The notes under the pieces are model-generated. The model saw nothing but the letters and a program-made list of their open reading frames with translations, was not told the origin of the DNA and did no database searches. The position numbers and the translations under genes were made by a program. DNA of 42,312 nt. Source: Bacteroidota bacterium. GTDB taxonomy: Bacteria; Bacteroidota; Bacteroidia; Cytophagales; Cyclobacteriaceae. The stretch lies in NCBI GenBank assembly GCA_022571715.1, contig JACZXH010000026.1, forward strand, positions 1-42,312, read 5' to 3'. Each line of letters begins with the position of its first letter. Positions within the stretch are counted from its first letter, which is position 1. Shown one piece after another: positions 2,816 to 9,611 of the stretch.

Positions 2816-3176
2816 TCATCGAGGATTAGGGAAATCCATCTTAGCAAGCAACTCCTGAAAACCCGGGTGGCTTTTTAAATCATCAAAAATTGGGTCGATG
2901 TTGATATAAGGCATATTTGCATCGTGGACATCGTAGGCCATACTAAGGTATCGAACCGCCGCATCATTTTTCCCTGCCCGGGTGTAGAGCGTACCTATCC
3001 TCCAGGGCGTCACGTATTGCAATTCTGAACGTGCTATCAGCAGTTCGGCCAGCCGTGTGAGGGCCAACGGGTAGTTCCCTTCGACATAACCGGCTTTCAG
3101 TGCAAGCACCCATTATCGCGGTATATCCGACAATGTCGGTAAACATAATGGCTGCAAGCTGGCGTTTTGGAGACAT
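2816..3176 (-). pseudogene. Internally deleted adenylate/guanylate cyclase-TPR gene
   Basis: Reading from 3176, the start MSPKRQLAAIMFTDIVGYTA is the classic N-terminus of Bacteroidota class III cyclases that carry a C-terminal TPR region. It runs only about 24 codons before the frame changes. The downstream sequence, read in another frame, is a TPR tail: YPLALTRLAELLIARSELQY, then RIGTLYTRAGKNDAAVRYL, ending at 2816. The catalytic domain and most TPRs, which would need well over 1 kb, are missing. The ends of one gene are therefore joined by a large internal deletion with a frameshift. Confidence 0.65.
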
Positions 3177-3473
3177 CTTACTTCTGTATGCGTATACAAT
3201 ATACAAAAAACAGAAGCAGGGTGAAAGCAATTTCCTTTCTGAAGTAGGTTTAAGGAATTCAGGGCAAATCAATTCATTAACCTATAATTCACAAATGGAT
3301 CTACTCATCAACGTATACCCATCCAGACATATCTCACTCCGAAGTGAGCTTACTCCATAAATTCTACAATTCAGTACACGGATCATTCGCTTTACTTCAC
3401 CTCATTTTATTGTTTCCGATAAAGATCAGAATTTTGGGAAGTGATAGATTGAAAAAATTAAAATGAACTCAAA

Positions 3474-5003
3474 ATGAAAAAAGTAACTCTCATTTTTATT
3501 GTGTTCGCCTTTGTGACATTTGCACACGCCCAGAATACAAGCAAAATTACTATGAAAGGAAGCGGCTCGTATTCACATTCATTCCGGACGACCAACGGGC
3601 AGACAAGTACAAATATTGAATACGACGGAACCATCGTTTTCAATGATACCGATACTGATGTAGAAAGTATCTCAACAGGAGGGTTTATCAAAATCTCTAA
3701 AAAAACATTCGGTACCCGGCGAACTGCCTTGCTGGAGGGAAAATCAGGCGGAAAAATTGAGAGGTTTTTTTACGTAGGTCACAAACTTCAGCCCTGGGAA
3801 CCCGAAGGCGCCGAGTGGCTGTCAGACGTACTACTCGACGTCATACGTTCCACTGGTATCGGCGCGGAAACACGGGTAAAAAGGTTTTACAGGATGGGAG
3901 GTGTAAAAGCCATAATAAACGAAATTGAAGAAATAAGGAGTGATTATGTGAAATCGAAGTATTTCAGGGCAGCAGTGAATGTTGATGGCATCTCTACCAA
4001 TGATATTAATGCACTAATCAAAGAGGCTGCTGATGAAATTGGGTCGGATTATGAAAAAAGTAGGTTTTTTATTTCCAGTAGCGATCTTTTTCTGAATGAT
4101 CCCTCTAACACCAATACAGTCATGCAGGTAACCACTGAAATTTCAAGTGATTTTGAGCAATCAAGGGTGTTTCTTTATTATATCAAAAAACATGATCTAA
4201 CCGATGAACAGAGTTCTTCATTGTTGAGATCATCTACGACTATTTCATCAGATTTTGAACTTTCACGTGTATTGATGGCACTTGTTAGTGAAAATGAATT
4301 ATCTACTGCCCTGATGATAAACCTGATGAAATCAGTACATTACATTTCGTCCGATTTTGAAGCTGCAAGGATGCTGATAACTACGATCGCCAAGCAAGAT
4401 ATGACCAATAAAAACATCAATCTGATCATAGATGCAACTCAGGATATTTCATCTGATTTTGAACAAACGAGAGTTTTGTTAAAATTAACCGGAAAAGAAT
4501 TGAGTTCTGATAATCTTAAACTTATTGCTGATGCAATAGAAAACATATCCTCTGATTTTGAAAAAAGCAGATTATTGAAAGGAATAATTTCAAAATATAA
4601 CTCAAAAGAAGAAGATATCTCTTTTATAATCGAAGCTTCGGAAAATATCTCATCTGATTTCGAACAAGCACGCGTACTTACATTGATTGCCGGAGTTGTT
4701 GACCTGAATGATGAAAGCTATAAGGCCGTAATTGAAGCTACAGACAACATAAGCTCATCTTACGAAAAAAAGCGCGTGTTGAGTATGCTAATCAAAAATA
4801 ATGATTTCAATAAAACGAAGTCGCTCTTTACCATCAGTTCAATAAAAGCAATATCAAGCAACTATGAAAAATCAAATTTACTCATTCTTCTGGGGCCGAA
4901 ATTACCGGATGACACAGAAGTGAAGGATGCATTCAGGTCTGCTGCCAGATCAATCTCCTCCGATCATGAATACGGTAAAGTAATGCGAGCCGTAGATTTT
5001 TAA
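3474..5003 (+). CDS. Secreted protein with eleven 'ISSDFE' repeats
   Basis: A 509-residue protein with a Sec signal peptide (MKKVTLIFIVFAFVTFAHA, cleavage before QN). The N-terminal module (about 25-140) includes TDVESISTGGFIKI and GAEWLSDVLLDVIRSTGIGA. Then come eleven units about 36 residues apart, each centred on I-x-S-D-[YF]-E-x-[SA]-R-[VF]-[LF]. Examples are IRSDYVKSKYF, IGSDYEKSRFF, ISSDFEQSRVF and ISSDFEKSRLL; the last two have drifted to ISSNYEKSNLL and ISSDHEYGKVM. I recall the same module as the C-terminal part of some M56/BlaR1-type membrane peptidases; here it stands alone with no peptidase. The unit probably forms an alpha-solenoid (inference). Three signalling genes follow on the same strand after 138 bp, suggesting a sensor or ligand role. 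Confidence 0.85.
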   Translation: MKKVTLIFIVFAFVTFAHAQNTSKITMKGSGSYSHSFRTTNGQTSTNIEYDGTIVFNDTDTDVESISTGGFIKISKKTFGTRRTALLEGKSGGKIERFFYVGHKLQPWEPEGAEWLSDVLLDVIRSTGIGAETRVKRFYRMGGVKAIINEIEEIRSDYVKSKYFRAAVNVDGISTNDINALIKEAADEIGSDYEKSRFFISSSDLFLNDPSNTNTVMQVTTEISSDFEQSRVFLYYIKKHDLTDEQSSSLLRSSTTISSDFELSRVLMALVSENELSTALMINLMKSVHYISSDFEAARMLITTIAKQDMTNKNINLIIDATQDISSDFEQTRVLLKLTGKELSSDNLKLIADAIENISSDFEKSRLLKGIISKYNSKEEDISFIIEASENISSDFEQARVLTLIAGVVDLNDESYKAVIEATDNISSSYEKKRVLSMLIKNNDFNKTKSLFTISSIKAISSNYEKSNLLILLGPKLPDDTEVKDAFRSAARSISSDHEYGKVMRAVDF

Positions 5004-5141
5004 TATAAGCTTAACAAATCCTGAACGTTACGAATAAATCCACTGGAGTAAGGAATGTTAAAATTATTTGTTAATAACCGATAAGGTGTTCAAATTTATG
5101 ATCCGTATTGAAAGTCCGGAAAACTTATTGTTTTTGAAAAT

Positions 5142-6209
5142 ATGCAATTACCTGGTACAACAGCGATGAAGAATAAACTGGCTTATCTTTTCTCTGCAGC
5201 AGTTACGGGGGTTTCCCTTTATATCTATCTGTACTATAGTCATTTTGAATCACCTCCCGGATTGCCTGCAAATCTTACCGGATTTAGCATTACAGTTCTT
5301 ATATCCATTTTCTCGATTATATCCATGCTTGTATTCAATAGATTTTTAGACCATATTATATCGTGGAAGCAACATTTTGTGATCAGGTTTGGAGTGTCGG
5401 TCCTAACAGGCATGATCATTTGTATGGTTTTCGTACTTCTTGCGGGAGGAGGCTTTTTAACCATTGCAGAAGAAATATCATATGCAGCGCTTTTGGATCT
5501 TTACAGTAATGAGTTTGTAAAACTTCTGATATTACTTTTTTTTGTGATTCTGGTTTTCCAGGTCGCTTATTTCAGTTTTTACTCCTACCATCAATACGCT
5601 GTCGTACAACTTGGTAAAGTCACAGATAGAAGAGTCCAGCTTAAACTTAAGTTTGAAGCCCTGAAAAGTCAACTTAGTCCCCACTTTTTATTTAACAGTT
5701 TAAATACCATATCTTCCTTAATTTACCGTGACCCTGATGCAGCTGAAGAATTTATCAGAAGATTGGCTATCACATATCAATATGTAATTTCAACAAATAA
5801 AGACCAGTTGGTAAAGGTGGAAAACGAGGTGGAATTTATTAAGTCTTATTACCACTTGCTAAAAGTACGGTTTGAAAATGCACTAAATCTTGAAATAAAT
5901 ATCCCTGCCAATGTGATGACATCTTCCATACCGCCTCTCACACTTCAGATTCTTATTGAAAATGCTGTAAAACATAACCAGATAGATAAATCCCATCCAT
6001 TAAATATTTACATCGGAAGCATTGACAATACCTATTTACGTGTTACGAATACAAAAGGAGAAGCGCCTGCCCAGGTTAAATCATTCAATGTAGGTCTTGA
6101 CAATATTAAAAAACAATATGCCTTTTACACCACTGATCTCATAAAAATTGAAGATAATGGGAAGTTTACAGTTCAATTGCCTGTTATCAAAAATTTGAAT
6201 CCTATTTGA
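5142..6209 (+). CDS. LytS/YehU-type sensor histidine kinase (catalytically complete)
   Basis: A 355-residue membrane kinase. Four hydrophobic segments (about 13-31, 45-65, 80-103, 125-147) precede a short coiled linker and a His_kinase (PF06580-type) domain. The phospho-acceptor motif is LKSQLSPHFLFNSLNTI with His181. The N-box is LIENAVKHN (Asn274, His278) and the G-box is NVGLDNI near 316. All residues needed for phosphorylation are present. ATG at 5142 or an internal ATG at 5166 (MKNKLAYLF) could be the start; the second puts the first membrane segment closer to the N-terminus. The next gene starts 1 bp after its stop, so the two are almost certainly co-translated. Confidence 0.9.
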   Translation: MQLPGTTAMKNKLAYLFSAAVTGVSLYIYLYYSHFESPPGLPANLTGFSITVLISIFSIISMLVFNRFLDHIISWKQHFVIRFGVSVLTGMIICMVFVLLAGGGFLTIAEEISYAALLDLYSNEFVKLLILLFFVILVFQVAYFSFYSYHQYAVVQLGKVTDRRVQLKLKFEALKSQLSPHFLFNSLNTISSLIYRDPDAAEEFIRRLAITYQYVISTNKDQLVKVENEVEFIKSYYHLLKVRFENALNLEINIPANVMTSSIPPLTLQILIENAVKHNQIDKSHPLNIYIGSIDNTYLRVTNTKGEAPAQVKSFNVGLDNIKKQYAFYTTDLIKIEDNGKFTVQLPVIKNLNPI

Positions 6210-6210
6210 A

Positions 6211-7260
6211 ATGAATCAGAAAGCTTTTCACAATAACCCGATTTTCAGGATCGTCTGGCCATTGTTTTATGGCGCAGTCATTTATTTGCTTATTCTGCTT
6301 TTAAATAATAATCTATCTCAGCTTAATGAGAGTTTCTTTGGCCAGGAATTATACTTCTGCATAGCCCTGTCATACCTAATATTTGAGAGCAACAGGTTTA
6401 TCTTAAAATTAGATATTAAGCGCAAAACAGATGATCAATCGGCATTCAGAGTAATTTCTGTAATTGCTATTAATTTGTTGCTTACGTCAATTATTGTCTT
6501 TGTGGTTGTTAGAATCTATTTCAATATAATTCTTGGATTCAGCGCCATGAGTACCTTTTCTACTGAACTCAGTATGTTTATTCTGATATATGCAGCTACA
6601 GGATTGATTTATAACAGCCTTGTGATCAGTAACCAGTTTTTATTTAAAGAAAATCAGGATTTGCTGCAGAATGAACGCATACTGGCAGAAAACCTTGAAC
6701 TTGAATTATTGAAATTCAGGAATGAGGTCAATCCGGATTTACTATACGACAGTCTTGAATCCCTGATATCGCTCATTCATAATAATCTAAATGAAGCAGA
6801 AGATTATATTGACCGGCTTGCACTTATATACAGGCATATCCTTAGCAATAGAAATAATGAACTTATTAACATATCTCAGGAAATGGAGGCTGTAAAAAAT
6901 ATTGTTTATTTACTCAATGAAAAATACAATCACAACATTAAAATACATAGTCTGCCAGAGGAGTTTCCGGATTTCCTTGTGATACCAGGGGCTGTAATAA
7001 ATGCCATTGAAGCAATCATCAGGCAAACAATTATTACAACCGCCCAACCGCTGGGAATACATTTTGACTTTCAGGAAGACGATTATCTGGTGATACGGCA
7101 TAAATTAAACAACCGACTCGTCAATAAAAAGCAGGACTATATTTCCGAACTTCAGAATGCCTACTCCATATATACAGAAAAACCCGTAGTCTCTGTAAAA
7201 GCCTATGGCGAAAATTATGTAAAAATACCCATATTGCAGTTGGAAGAAGAACTTACATAA
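6211..7260 (+). CDS. Pseudo-histidine kinase paralogue of the LytS-type kinase
   Basis: A 349-residue protein with the same architecture as its upstream neighbour: four hydrophobic segments, a linker, then a kinase-like domain. The active-site motifs have been replaced. SPHFLFNSL of the partner aligns with NPDLLYDSL, so His becomes Asp176 and Asn becomes Asp180. The N-box ENAVKH aligns with EAIIRQ, so Asn and His are lost. The glycine of the G-box is absent (ISELQNAYSIY). Flanking helices remain similar (for example EDYIDRLALIYRHI against EEFIRRLAITYQYV), and the frame is full length and undamaged. It is thus a maintained pseudokinase, probably a heterodimer partner or allosteric regulator of the active kinase (inference). 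It starts 1 bp after that gene. Confidence 0.85.
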   Translation: MNQKAFHNNPIFRIVWPLFYGAVIYLLILLLNNNLSQLNESFFGQELYFCIALSYLIFESNRFILKLDIKRKTDDQSAFRVISVIAINLLLTSIIVFVVVRIYFNIILGFSAMSTFSTELSMFILIYAATGLIYNSLVISNQFLFKENQDLLQNERILAENLELELLKFRNEVNPDLLYDSLESLISLIHNNLNEAEDYIDRLALIYRHILSNRNNELINISQEMEAVKNIVYLLNEKYNHNIKIHSLPEEFPDFLVIPGAVINAIEAIIRQTIITTAQPLGIHFDFQEDDYLVIRHKLNNRLVNKKQDYISELQNAYSIYTEKPVVSVKAYGENYVKIPILQLEEELT

Positions 7261-7286
7261 TGATAGCGGGCATCCGGAGAAGCTAA

Positions 7287-8072
7287 ATGAAAGCACTAAT
7301 AATCGAAGATGAAACCCCGGCCGCAGAAAAACTTGAGCGGTACCTGAAAAGGTTTGATCCGAACAGTGAGGTTCTGGCTATTTTGAAAAGTGTTGAAAGT
7401 TCGGTTGCATGGCTAACCGCTAATCCATTGCTGGCTGACATTATCTTTATGGACATTCAGTTGCTGGATGGTAAATGTTTTGAAATTTTCGAAAAAACAA
7501 AAGTGGAATCCCCCATCATATTTACTACGGCGTATGATGAATATGCCCTTGAAGCGTTTAAAGTAAACAGTGTTGCATACCTGATTAAGCCCATCACATT
7601 TGACGACATCAGTCAGGCATTGGACAAAGTATCTGCACTCAAAAAGACATTCAATAAGTCTGAAATAGAAGATTCATTTGTCCTTCAAAAGATGCTGGCG
7701 GATATGGGAAAACCGAACAAATCATACAAAAACCGGTTTATGGTTAAAGTTGGGGATCATATCAAATCGATTCCCGCTGACAATATCAAGTTATTCTTTG
7801 CTGACGGAAGGACCGCCTGGCTCGTTACCGACGAGGGACGTAAATACATTATAGATTTCAAGCTGGAACAACTTGAAGATCTGCTTGACCCGGTACATTT
7901 TCAGCGGGTGAACCGGACTTTTATTCTTAACATCAATTGTATAAAGGATGTAATTGTATTCTCAAACAGCAGGTTGAAGGTTATTCCCGATCAGACATTG
8001 GATAAGGAGATCATCATCAGCCGCGAGAAAGTACCTCAATTTAAAGACTGGATTGATGGAAAAGTGGGCTAA
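7287..8072 (+). CDS. LytTR-family response regulator
   Basis: A 261-residue response regulator. The receiver domain (1-115) has the acidic pocket IIEDE (residues 5-9), phospho-acceptor Asp56 in IIFMDIQLLDG, Thr81 in FTTAYDEYALEAF and Lys101 in YLIKPI. A linker of about 35 residues leads to a C-terminal LytTR DNA-binding domain from about 148, with the family pattern FQRVNRTFILNINCIKDV. It sits 26 bp after the pseudokinase, completing an operon with both kinases. LytTR targets are direct repeats upstream of regulated genes; I could not identify one with confidence here. The secreted repeat protein at 3474 is the obvious candidate for a co-regulated gene. Confidence 0.92.
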   Translation: MKALIIEDETPAAEKLERYLKRFDPNSEVLAILKSVESSVAWLTANPLLADIIFMDIQLLDGKCFEIFEKTKVESPIIFTTAYDEYALEAFKVNSVAYLIKPITFDDISQALDKVSALKKTFNKSEIEDSFVLQKMLADMGKPNKSYKNRFMVKVGDHIKSIPADNIKLFFADGRTAWLVTDEGRKYIIDFKLEQLEDLLDPVHFQRVNRTFILNINCIKDVIVFSNSRLKVIPDQTLDKEIIISREKVPQFKDWIDGKVG

Positions 8073-8136
8073 TGCATACACCAGGATAATGTAAAGCCTT
8101 TTTCAAATATAGTTCGCCTGGTTGTGGTTTTCTGCA

Positions 8137-8382
8137 TTACCCGCCCAAATCAATCAATTTCAATCGGTAAATCATCAACTGACTGCCACTTCCAATCGCC
8201 CAACCTACGTCACCATTAGCAAAGTTGATGAAGTCATCACCGCGGTTGAACCGGATATTTGAAAACTGCTGAGGAGCTTCAATGATATTCCCATTAGCAT
8301 CGACGATGGCAAACATGGCTTTGAAGGTACCACCTGAAACCTCTTCCCAGGTCTCTGATCTGATTAGGGTAGGCTGATTCAT
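8137..8382 (-). CDS. Hypothetical small protein overlapping the MFS gene
   Basis: About 81 residues from the ATG at 8382 (MNQPTLIRSETWEEV) to TGA at 8137. This start overlaps the stop of the preceding MFS gene as ATGA (8379-8382), typical of translational coupling; a start at 8418 would lie inside the MFS gene. The sequence (FKAMFAIVDANGNII, then RGDDFINFANGDVGWAIG) has alternating strand/turn character resembling one or two blades of a beta-propeller or the end of a larger secreted protein. There is no signal peptide. I do not recognise a family. It may be a relocated C-terminal fragment. Confidence 0.5.
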   Translation of the reverse strand: MNQPTLIRSETWEEVSGGTFKAMFAIVDANGNIIEAPQQFSNIRFNRGDDFINFANGDVGWAIGSGSQLMIYRLKLIDLGG

Positions 8383-9611
8383 ACAACATTTAATTTTACC
8401 GAAATCGGGTCGCTGCAATTCATTCTAAAGTAAATGATTATAGCGGAGACGAAGGTCAAAAAACCTATGAAGATTATAGAAGTATTTATATTTACCAAAT
8501 CGGCAATAACGCCTGTTAGAATGGCCCCAATGGCATAACCCGAATCTCTCCAAAGCCTAAAAATCCCAATACTTTTTGCGCGGTCTTGTGGATGTGTATA
8601 TTCAGCTATTGTCGCTAAAAAGGTGGGATAAACCATGGCTGTCCCCCATCCTAATATGGAGGACAAAACAACATAATGAAACATGGAGTTTGCCCAAGCC
8701 ATAAAAATAAGTGCAATGGCCTGAAGAAGCATTCCAAGGTAAAGCATATTCCTTTTGCAAAATTTATCTGCCATTTTACCTGTAAATAATTGTCCTATAC
8801 CCCATACCGCAGGATAAACAGCCGTTACTATTCCGATTTGTTCCAGTGTGAAATTTTTTCCTGCTAATAGAATAGGAAATATTCCCCATACCATTCCATC
8901 ATTCAGGTTGTTTATTAATCCGGCTTGCGTTACCGAGCCCAGATTTTTATCTTTCCAGGTTGTGTCCCAAAATATATTTTTAAGTTTGGGAACGGAACTG
9001 GAGCTTGATTCTTTAGCTACATGATGTCTGGTGTCTTTGATAAAAAAGATGCTTCCCACTAAGCCAAAAAATACCAATGCAATTCCTAAATAAAAAGGAT
9101 AAGGCCTGATTCCATATTCACTTGCTATCCATCCTGTAAGGAAGGCAACTATAGCCACGGCAAAATAACCGGCAAATTCATTCAACCCCATTGCAAAACC
9201 TCTTTGTTTGTCGCCAACAAGGTCAATTTTCATCACTACCGTGCTCGACCAGGTCAATCCCTGATTAATGCCTAAAAGTACATTGGCCACAATGATCCAA
9301 TCCCAGTTTGGAGCAAACATTAGGAGAAAAGGAATGGGAATACCAATTACCCAACCCGCTATCAAAAGGTTTTTTCTACCAAATTTATTGGCTAAAACTC
9401 CTGTATAATAGTTGGTAATAGCTTTTACAATACCAAACACTATGATAAATGAAAGAATGGCGGTTTTTGCTACTAAGGCAAACTCCACCTCCGCAATTTG
9501 AGGAAGAATAGAACGCTCCAAACCAACCATGCCACCGACAAATCCATTGATGATCACAAGCAACGTAAACTGTTTCCAGTTTTCTTTTAACCCGAGTTTT
9601 ACGTTTTGCAT
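8379..9611 (-). CDS. MFS transporter in a sulfur-associated operon
   Basis: A 410-residue major facilitator with about twelve membrane segments. The loop 2-3 signature is recognisable as GVLANKFGRKNLL (about residues 70-82). A second half-repeat of that motif reads LFTGKMADKFCKRNMLYLG in the C-terminal half. It lies 8 bp downstream of the rhodanese/persulfide dioxygenase-like gene, with the Crp-like regulator upstream, so the three are probably one transcript. The substrate cannot be read from sequence. The context suggests a sulfur compound or a by-product of persulfide metabolism (inference). Confidence 0.85.
   Translation of the reverse strand: MQNVKLGLKENWKQFTLLVIINGFVGGMVGLERSILPQIAEVEFALVAKTAILSFIIVFGIVKAITNYYTGVLANKFGRKNLLIAGWVIGIPIPFLLMFAPNWDWIIVANVLLGINQGLTWSSTVVMKIDLVGDKQRGFAMGLNEFAGYFAVAIVAFLTGWIASEYGIRPYPFYLGIALVFFGLVGSIFFIKDTRHHVAKESSSSSVPKLKNIFWDTTWKDKNLGSVTQAGLINNLNDGMVWGIFPILLAGKNFTLEQIGIVTAVYPAVWGIGQLFTGKMADKFCKRNMLYLGMLLQAIALIFMAWANSMFHYVVLSSILGWGTAMVYPTFLATIAEYTHPQDRAKSIGIFRLWRDSGYAIGAILTGVIADLVNINTSIIFIGFLTFVSAIIIYFRMNCSDPISVKLNVV

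Follow-up and report, generated by a model that had tools for sequence, protein, structure and literature searches.

A conserved repeat protein, kinase, pseudokinase and LytTR regulator cassette of Bacteroidota is a probable self-inducing envelope sensor

Does the gene for an exported repeat protein that lies ahead of two LytS-type kinase genes and a LytTR regulator gene belong to the same signaling system, and if so, what role could its product have there? The locus that raises this question lies in a 42,312-nucleotide contig of a Cyclobacteriaceae bacterium (JACZXH010000026.1), the whole of which is here called the window. The open reading frame listing confirms the four genes of the preliminary description, all on the + strand between 3474 and 8072 in the order REP (repeat protein), K1 (kinase), K2 (pseudokinase) and RR (response regulator), with the gaps of 1 bp between K1 and K2 and 26 bp between K2 and RR that it had given (Table 1). 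The gap between REP and K1 is 138 bp, or 162 bp if K1 begins at the second ATG, 5166, which may be the actual start because the consensus of its relatives opens with 'MRK' there. A terminator and independent regulation in this gap had been named as evidence against grouping REP with the kinases; a scan of the window sequence found no terminator-like site on the + strand in 5003-5142.

Table 1 Coordinates of the genes, protein regions and predicted regulatory elements of the cassette in the window.
Feature	Position	Strand	Description
LytTR-type operator (predicted)	3345..3399	+	three half-sites, 21-bp period: 3345, 3366, 3387
Probable promoter	3405..3436	+	-33-like TTTT 3405-3408, -7-like GAATTTTG 3429-3436
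REP	3474..5003	+	ORF, 509 aa, exported, 11 repeats
REP signal peptide	3474..3530	+	residues 1-19, ..AHA|QN
REP N-terminal beta domain	3534..3791	+	residues 21-106, AlphaFold2 model, mean pLDDT 92.6
REP alpha-solenoid	3795..4997	+	residues 108-508, two-helix units of ~34 aa, AlphaFold2
K1	5142..6209	+	ORF, 355 aa, LytS-type (PF06580) membrane histidine kinase
K2	6211..7260	+	ORF, 349 aa, pseudokinase paralog of K1
RR	7287..8072	+	ORF, 261 aa, receiver + LytTR DNA-binding domain

The preliminary description linked REP to the kinases by adjacency only, and would have given up the link if REP homologs showed no tendency to adjoin PF06580/LytTR genes. Such a tendency is pronounced. The order REP-K1-K2-RR, on one strand, occurs in 45 of the 48 regions examined in the family (counting as present L062, with a damaged K1, and L076, with a split REP), in 48 of 56 named loci, a set that overlaps with the family regions, and in 6 of the 13 genomes outside the family that match REP; it is preserved in 24 of the 26 genera having REP matches and also in other families. 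Of 196 family genomes, 47 have a REP homolog. Both REP and K2 are present in 45 of the 196, one alone in 3 (2 and 1), and neither in 148 (Fisher p ~1e-40); G133 and G002:C4, which have a K2-like score and a better fit to the K1 profile, were left out of the K2 count, and the table becomes 45/2/2/147 if G133 is included. Two further genomes from the genus to which the contig belongs were examined and yielded no REP, one of these genomes being just 58% complete. Two loci, L070 and L069, carry REP without the kinases, and in G087, K1 and K2 lie at the very start of a contig with no RR directly after them; a K1-K2-RR trio lacking REP was not seen for sure among the loci examined. Judging from these comparisons of gene content and order, many environmental Bacteroidota keep the four genes together as a unit.

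REP contains 11 repeats of the [IVL]x-S-[DSN]-[YFH]-[EV] type, spaced by 33-35 aa, as noted previously, compared to a maximum of 1 in 1000 shuffles of its sequence. The signal peptide is the sole hydrophobic segment of the protein by hydropathy, and the residue that follows it, Q20, is shared by 90% or more of 41 sequences; given that there is no Cys after the cleavage site, the possibility that REP is a lipoprotein was rejected. Type IX secretion is likewise unsupported, the last repeat forming the C-terminus and Pfam showing no sorting domain. No curated family in Pfam or NCBIfam matches REP above the cut-off, the best Pfam score being that of DUF4476 (19 bits vs a cut-off of 22.5). Structure matches in the PDB are limited to generic HEAT/ARM-like solenoids, with no match to the whole fold, and the alignment with VPS35 (VIA-align, Z 14.7, 249 residues, rmsd 3.7) may, for helical repeats, reflect merely a common arrangement. 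As modeled, the solenoid appears suited to the binding of peptides or proteins.

The two kinase-like proteins differ in what they retain. K1 matches PF06580 (Pfam, E 1.9e-23), with H181 and the N box E273-N279 as its key residues, and the examined H-box and N-box residues are intact in 39/39 aligned K1s; the earlier claim that K1 has all kinase motifs holds for these boxes and fails at the G1 box, where, following the general definition of the motif, the expected Asp position is occupied by Asn in all 39. By its PF06580 domain, H box and N box, K1 falls within the LytS/LytTR two-component systems, as does RR by its receiver Asp and LytTR domain. K2 also matches PF06580 (E 7.1e-10), but has lost the N and G boxes, and the phospho-His is missing in 40/40 K2s (D in 23, including that of the window, E in 10 and other residues in 7), which bears out its description as a K1 paralog with replaced motifs. 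In the AlphaFold2 model of K2 (pLDDT 86.4), long N-terminal helices, the membrane helices being joined by short connections, precede a kinase-like C-terminal half, and the matches that Foldseek lists for it, at low TM-scores, belong to histidine kinases and related ATPases; hydropathy likewise indicates no large outside domain in K1. The kinase tree, for which usable ORFs came from 11 of 29 outgroup kinase loci plus L110 and L111, has no outside root, so that 'one group' denotes one side of a branch; in this sense, K2 forms one group with support 100/100 and K1 another with 100/99. The dN/dS of K2 is 0.03-0.11 in 9/9 close pairs, with K1 alike in 8/9 measurable. By tree and substitution pattern, K2 is a single lineage under purifying selection. 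Among 1176 non-independent pairs, the membrane half of K2 is more conserved than that of K1 in 96.9%, and the kinase half of K1 is more conserved than that of K2 in 95.2% of the same 1176 non-independent pairs, a pattern that suggests a division of labor between the two.

RR consists of a receiver and a LytTR domain (PF00072 and PF04397), and the receiver Asp, D56, is present in every aligned row but one (45 of 46), and that row has a gap there; among the 48 named loci with the full gene order, RR is short in two, L147 and L158. The DNA upstream of REP looks like this regulator's own binding site. Of the three half-sites in the window, that in the center, ACAATTCAGTACA, matches best and the two outer ones are poor, so that the site is weaker here than elsewhere; the geometry of the predicted operator is 9 bp, 12 bp, 9 bp and ~10 bp, followed by the -33 box. 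When the entire window was scanned on both strands with a matrix derived from other genomes, the top sites were 3366 (22.0 bits) and 3345 (21.8), and the next scored 9.0. The predicted operator precedes REP in 51/53 named loci and in 50/51 cassettes from outside the named set, compared to 1/15 REP-matching loci without the cassette, that one being a decayed cassette. Of 38 held-out REP upstream regions, 37 scored above the 99th percentile set by 396 upstreams of control genes, and across 1.80 Mb of loci, 102 of the 105 sites with at least 18 bits precede REP. The training set left out L076, L069, L070, L077, the window and eight near-identical regions, and the held-out count left out ten named loci identical to training ones and eight incomplete or different loci. 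The exceptions include L054, an intact cassette with no site of 18 bits, L143, with a maximum of 17.3 bits, and L124, which has no site and only 52 bp of contig upstream of REP. A repeat at spacing 21 is found within single sequences in 36/44 (mean 9.6 and maximum 18 in 100 shuffles), some 7-mer repeat at 21 occurring in 135/415 control upstreams. These tests are inflated by shared ancestry because the promoters compared are orthologous; nearby upstream positions other than the operator have diverged. The letters of the probable promoter are conserved at a fixed distance past the operator in 101 loci, the first letter of the -7-like box departing from TAnnTTTG in the window and in most loci (C in 63, with the exact motif in 3/101). 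Scans of the window alone with the sigma-70 and TAnnTTTG consensus were uninformative.

Among the genes neighboring the cassettes, one family occurs near 10/45 of them (16 genes, of which 6 were checked by Pfam, 6/6 being MacB/FtsX-like), and another near 9/45 (27 genes, two checked, both amidohydrolases); MacB-like permeases also adjoin REP in L166 and L167. Weaker operator-like sites of 14.5 and 15.0 bits (99th control percentile, 9.7) lie upstream of two MacB genes, in L038 and L040, so that a regulon is possible, which we do not claim.

Relatives of REP occur in other settings as well. Among 195 genomes of another Bacteroidota class, the four that match encode them beside BlaI-M56 (4/4); in a Gemmatimonadota metagenome-assembled genome (L165), the relative is fused to M56; REP-like repeats lie in the C-terminal region of M56 proteins in L103, L104, L171 and L172; and two sigma-factor operons include a relative. 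The C-terminal part of an M56 transducer is its sensor position. Two further matches are short proteins with the N-terminal part only (G550/G566), and the match of a TPR protein (G515) is probably due to chance; these were assigned to none of the settings above. We tentatively raise the possibility, on which our confidence stays somewhat short of even, that the beta-domain and SD-solenoid constitute a general periplasmic plug-in sensor module wired to LytS/pseudo-LytS pairs, BlaR1-type M56 proteases and sigma-factor operons in Bacteroidota and Gemmatimonadota; the variant in the window would then be the one built on kinases, in which an obligate kinase-pseudokinase receptor feeds back positively on the periplasmic sensor that serves it.

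For the cassette itself, we favor, with reasonable though far from full confidence, a self-inducing, four-part envelope signaling system in which REP is the periplasmic partner, K2 a receptor-like pseudokinase and K1 the enzyme. The set is probably a self-inducing envelope sensor because the unit is conserved and the switch before REP resembles an RR site; the envelope-sensing role proposed at the outset, with its dedicated repeat protein, thus gains support from the conserved order, the co-occurrence and the LytTR-type operator before REP. Comparative analysis establishes the conserved unit, the degeneration of K2, the operator-like repeats and their place before cassette REPs. From these we infer that K1 and K2 form a heteromer, that RR is what binds the repeats, that its effect is to activate and not to repress, that REP is an input or feedback partner and that the cue is an envelope change. 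Exported to the periplasm, REP would serve the membrane kinases as a partner outside the cytoplasm, and K2, with its unusually conserved membrane half, would receive a cue, either REP itself or something that REP monitors. K2 would form a complex with K1, which would contribute the catalytic ATPase and the phospho-histidine, and K1 would phosphorylate D56 of RR. RR would then bind the tandem 21-bp-period repeats upstream of the REP promoter and activate it, raising REP and, via read-through, K1, K2 and RR.

Because the operator lies directly before REP, the first gene, REP under the control of RR could equally be an output protein: K1, K2 and RR would sense through their membrane helices and induce REP as an envelope-protective effector, without feedback, and in the sigma-factor operons REP could likewise be a downstream target. 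We regard this reading as rather unlikely, given that the L165 fusion and the C-terminal repeats of M56 proteins place the module in a transducer's sensor position, and that REP is co-inherited with K2 more tightly than expected of an ordinary target. An external partner is, moreover, plausible for kinases with hardly any outside domain, considering the short inter-helix connections in the K2 model and the hydropathy of K1. REP might instead be a negative-feedback brake, induced by RR: once damaged envelope material has ceased to titrate it, REP would bind to the kinases on their periplasmic side and silence them, a logic resembling that of CpxP. Export, operator control and a solenoid apparently suited to binding peptides or proteins are all compatible with such a brake. 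The sequence favors neither a positive nor a negative effect, and we consider the brake unlikely. That the four genes are adjacent by chance or shared mobility, with K2 a decaying duplicate, is highly improbable and was rejected: the patchy spread of REP would fit, but the gene order kept across genera and families, the co-occurrence, the single constrained K2 lineage in the tree with its low dN/dS and the conserved operator all argue against it.

How does this favored reading, a self-inducing sensor with a periplasmic REP, compare with known systems? Among the matches listed from the open-access PMC literature, with subscription papers mostly outside the scope, none names this cassette or REP; the initial remark that no described system of this composition was known is qualified by FasBCA as a partial precedent. 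The regulator of FasBCA is of the LytTR type. Passages of a report on this system of group A Streptococcus (PMC12675982) describe heterodimerization of FasB with FasC, the latter a proposed pseudokinase, with the membrane part of FasB and the kinase part of FasC being dispensable and the phospho-His of FasC, H246, retained and required. As in our cassette, two sensor-kinase-like membrane proteins, one of them a pseudokinase, accompany one regulator, and, by description rather than by comparison of K1/K2 with FasB/FasC sequences, the split of roles is the same as that suggested by K1/K2 conservation; in contrast, H246 is kept in FasC and the His is lost in all 40 K2s, the phylum differs, and a periplasmic repeat protein is not among the fas components that those passages mention. 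By this analysis, FasBCA is the nearest precedent, from which the cassette differs as a variant. In the LytTR Regulatory Systems HdrRM/BrsRM, as described in passages of PMC6193735, the operator is a pair of 9-bp direct repeats, in most cases separated by 12 bp and frequently placed 10 bp ahead of the -35 box, and the operon is positively autoregulated; the cassette shares the LytTR regulator, and the geometry of its predicted operator before REP matches that of such autoactivating operons (PMC6193735). Those systems, however, consist of a regulator and a membrane inhibitor, whereas the cassette joins REP to a kinase, a pseudokinase and an RR that carries a receiver, its membrane proteins being the PF06580 kinase and pseudokinase, with no dedicated non-kinase membrane inhibitor. 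BlaR1-BlaI is similar in that REP relatives accompany or fuse to M56 in BlaI-M56 operons, but Pfam detects neither M56 nor Penicillinase_R in the four window proteins. BtsSR and YpdAB of E. coli also pair a LytS-type kinase with a LytTR regulator, but the opening parts of the abstracts on them mention neither a pseudokinase nor any periplasmic repeat protein dedicated to the pair. DivL and ChrS belong to kinase families other than that of K1 and K2. According to passages of PMC9491836, these kinase-like proteins work without kinase activity, and their suggested target is an active kinase; unlike K2, they are not described there as sharing an operon with a repeat protein and a regulator of the LytTR type.

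LytS-type kinases are abundant in Bacteroidota, with 5 to 50 encoded by each of the 8 genomes that were searched, and, to our knowledge, the inputs of most of them are unknown. Because the kinase-pseudokinase pair, the operator and the periplasmic partner form one conserved unit, three questions can be addressed in a single operon, namely, how a pseudo-histidine kinase works without its histidine, how a signal reaches membrane kinases that have almost no outside domain, and what is sensed by the SD-solenoid, a module also found joined to BlaR1-type proteases.

The exported repeat protein (REP), the LytS-type kinase (K1), its paralogue without the kinase motifs (K2) and the LytTR response regulator (RR) form a gene unit, and both the unit and its conservation are firm. 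Homologs of REP were detected in 47 of the 196 genomes of the family, across 26 of 84 genera (the homolog in G009 is a 52-aa fragment), and the order REP, K1, K2, RR on one strand holds in 45 of the 48 regions of the family set (47 regions around REP homologs plus the window), with median gaps of 75, −4 and −4 bp; a damaged K1 (L062) and a split REP (L076) are included among the 45. In the three other regions, L069 carries REP but no K1 in the remaining 1.1 kb of the contig, L070 has REP by itself and L077 only fragments of REP and RR, so the genera of L070 and L077 lack the cassette and 24 of the 26 remain. The L077 region (4979-8520) represents a cassette in decay: an RR remnant, a REP fragment and the operator persist, and K1 and K2 were not found there.

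Among loci from named genomes, ten of which come from the same genomes as the family set, the cassette is present in 48 of 56 (RR is short in two of the 48); three of the other eight reach a contig end (L120, L122, L130), two contain broken genes (L136, L150) and three represent different contexts (L165-L167). The link of REP to PF06580 and LytTR genes, which the preliminary description drew from adjacency in the window, is now based on more than a single genome. Across the family genomes, 45 have both REP and K2, 2 REP only, 1 K2 only (at a contig start) and 148 neither (Fisher p about 1e-40); G133 and G002:C4, with a K2-like score but closer to the K1 profile, were not counted as K2, and with G133 the table becomes 45/2/2/147. 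Two wider searches covered 395 genomes each, one at the level of the phylum and one at that of the class; they scored the first 3-4 candidates of each genome, so the counts are lower bounds. REP matches outside the family occur in at least 13 of these genomes: at least six with the cassette (in one, RR is cut by the contig end), at least two with a sigma-factor operon, at least two with a BlaI-M56 operon, two with only a short N-terminal-like protein, and one with a TPR protein, probably matched by chance.

Cassette genes and upstream elements in the window
Feature	Position	Strand	Basis or remark
Operator half-sites	3345, 3366, 3387	+	PWM; outer two poor
TTTT (−33-like)	3405-3408	+	3' of half-sites
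GAATTTTG (−7-like)	3429-3436	+	3' of TTTT
REP ATG	3474	+	3' of −7-like element
REP ORF	3474-5003	+	ORF call; signal peptide and 11 repeats
K1 ORF	5142-6209	+	PF06580 match, E 1.9e-23
K2 ORF	6211-7260	+	PF06580 match, E 7.1e-10
RR ORF	7287-8072	+	Response_reg and LytTR matches

The genome of the window (3.47 Mb, 136 contigs) encodes five PF06580 matches and one REP. A terminator and independent regulation between REP and K1 had been named as grounds for rejecting the sensing cassette; no terminator-like site was found there on the + strand. Just 5' of the operator, two short overlapping ORFs on the − strand (2816-3272) resemble a class III nucleotide cyclase remnant (..AAIMFTDIVGYTAIMG..) and a TPR-like end, and are apparently a broken gene, as identified by reading only.

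The description of REP as an exported protein of eleven repeats holds: its sole hydrophobic stretch is the signal peptide (residues 1-19), and the 11 repeats, spaced 33-35 aa, compare with at most 1 repeat in any of 1000 shuffles. The repeat number is nearly fixed, at 9-11 in 41 of 47 homologs by motif count. REP matched no family above the cut-off in family searches. Its AlphaFold2 model (51-row alignment; mean pLDDT 92.6, pTM 0.83) predicts a signal helix, a beta domain (21-106) and helix pairs up to the C-terminal end, and fold comparisons (Foldseek, VIA-align) returned generic alpha-solenoids only (VPS35, Z 14.7).

The examined H-box and N-box residues are invariant in 39 K1s, and K2 is indeed a pseudokinase with a replaced motif: none of 40 K2s has His at the His column (D 23, E 10, T 2, G 2, S 1, N 1, F 1). 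In an unrooted maximum-likelihood tree of 73 sequences (30 K1, 30 K2, 13 others), the K1 sequences fall into one group and the K2 sequences into another (support 100/99 and 100/100), and the dN/dS of K2, 0.03-0.11 in nine close pairs, lies within the range of K1. Mean pairwise identity is 0.35 for K1 and 0.46 for K2 in the membrane half, and 0.61 and 0.49 in the kinase half; with an author-set boundary and 1176 non-independent pairs, K2 is the more conserved in the membrane half in 96.9% of pairs and K1 in the kinase half in 95.2%. Because the two halves differ in opposite directions, we infer from these sequences that K2 would be the receptor and K1 the enzyme, and a K1-K2 heteromer is reasonably likely. 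Such a split between two kinase-like proteins exists in FasB/FasC of Streptococcus, where FasC keeps its His, unlike K2 (PMC12675982).

Of 44 cassettes, 36 carry a 7-mer direct repeat with a spacing of 21 ahead of REP, compared with 7-19 for the other spacings between 10 and 35. Shuffled upstreams reach a mean of 9.6 and a maximum of 18 of 44, and 135 of 415 control gene upstreams have such a repeat. A 34-bp PWM (ACAATTCAnTACA, 8 bp, ACAGTTCAnTACA) was built from 35 non-redundant REP upstreams, the window not among them. Its scores exceed the 99th percentile of the 396 control upstreams at 30 of the 35 training loci and at 37 of 38 held-out loci. Over 1.80 Mb of loci, some genomes being included twice, 105 sites reach 18 bits on either strand, 102 of them 5' of REP; mono-shuffled sequence gives 0.67 per pass. 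The operator is found in 50 of 51 cassettes of the family and other-family sets (L054 being the miss), including all six other-family cassettes, none of them used in training, and in 51 of 53 named-genome loci, the misses being L143 (17.3 bits) and L124, whose contig begins 52 bp 5' of REP. Among 15 non-cassette REP-matching loci it occurs once, in the decayed L077 with its RR remnant. The two best sites in all 42 kb of the window are at 3366 and 3345. RR very likely binds this putative operator.

The three remaining sites of the 105 all belong to one genus, and two lie 5' of a divergent outer-membrane barrel gene (PF14905) that has its own strong operator copy (L051:5480-7924, L052:4978-8067). 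In that genus, the barrel gene may be a second target of the regulator.

At fixed distances 3' of the operator, two T's (95% and 86% of 101 loci) are followed by a −7-like element with the frequencies A 0.88, T 0.95, T 0.90, G 0.84. This element resembles the flavobacterial TAnnTTTG box (PMC9723704), but it starts with C in 63 and with T in 11 of the 101 loci, and exact TAnnTTTG occupies its place in 3. The last 9-mer lies about 10 bp from the −33 box, which is the geometry of autoactivating LytTR operons (PMC6193735).

Outside the cassette, REP relatives accompany regulators of other types. A Gemmatimonadota MAG (L165:4190-7248) encodes a BlaI-type repressor and, after it, an 889-aa protein in which an M56 peptidase is joined to a near-complete REP module. 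This protein is a BlaR1-like receptor whose C-terminal part is the solenoid; by topology, REP is at what we take to be the position of the outside sensor domain of BlaR1. REP relatives also accompany BlaI and an M56 protein, itself with REP-like repeats at its C-terminus, in L103, L104, L171 and L172, all four matching genomes among 195 of their Bacteroidota class. The M56 fusion favors REP as the input of the system; REP may instead be a brake or the output.

In L101 (6810-9400) and L102 (6509-9162), a sigma-70 r2/r4 gene, probably of the ECF type given its r2 and r4 regions, is followed in an operon-like row by small genes (one in L101 weakly DUF6249-like, below cut-off) and a REP relative. 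MacB-like permeases adjoin REP in L166 and L167. One gene family of 16 genes lies within five genes of 10 of the 45 cassettes (L032, L038, L040, L041, L048, L049, L071, L072, L074, L076); the six put to Pfam are MacB/FtsX-like, a possible functional partner.

The separate parts are of known kinds, their combination is not named among the open-access papers listed in the searches, and membership in the FasBCA type or the LytTR Regulatory Systems fails in each case on a tested feature. Among the described systems found, these two are its nearest relatives in working principle. In the most likely mechanism, periplasmic REP would be coupled across the membrane to K2-K1, K1 would phosphorylate RR, and RR would bind the tandem repeats and drive REP, probably with the whole operon; positive autoregulation is likely.
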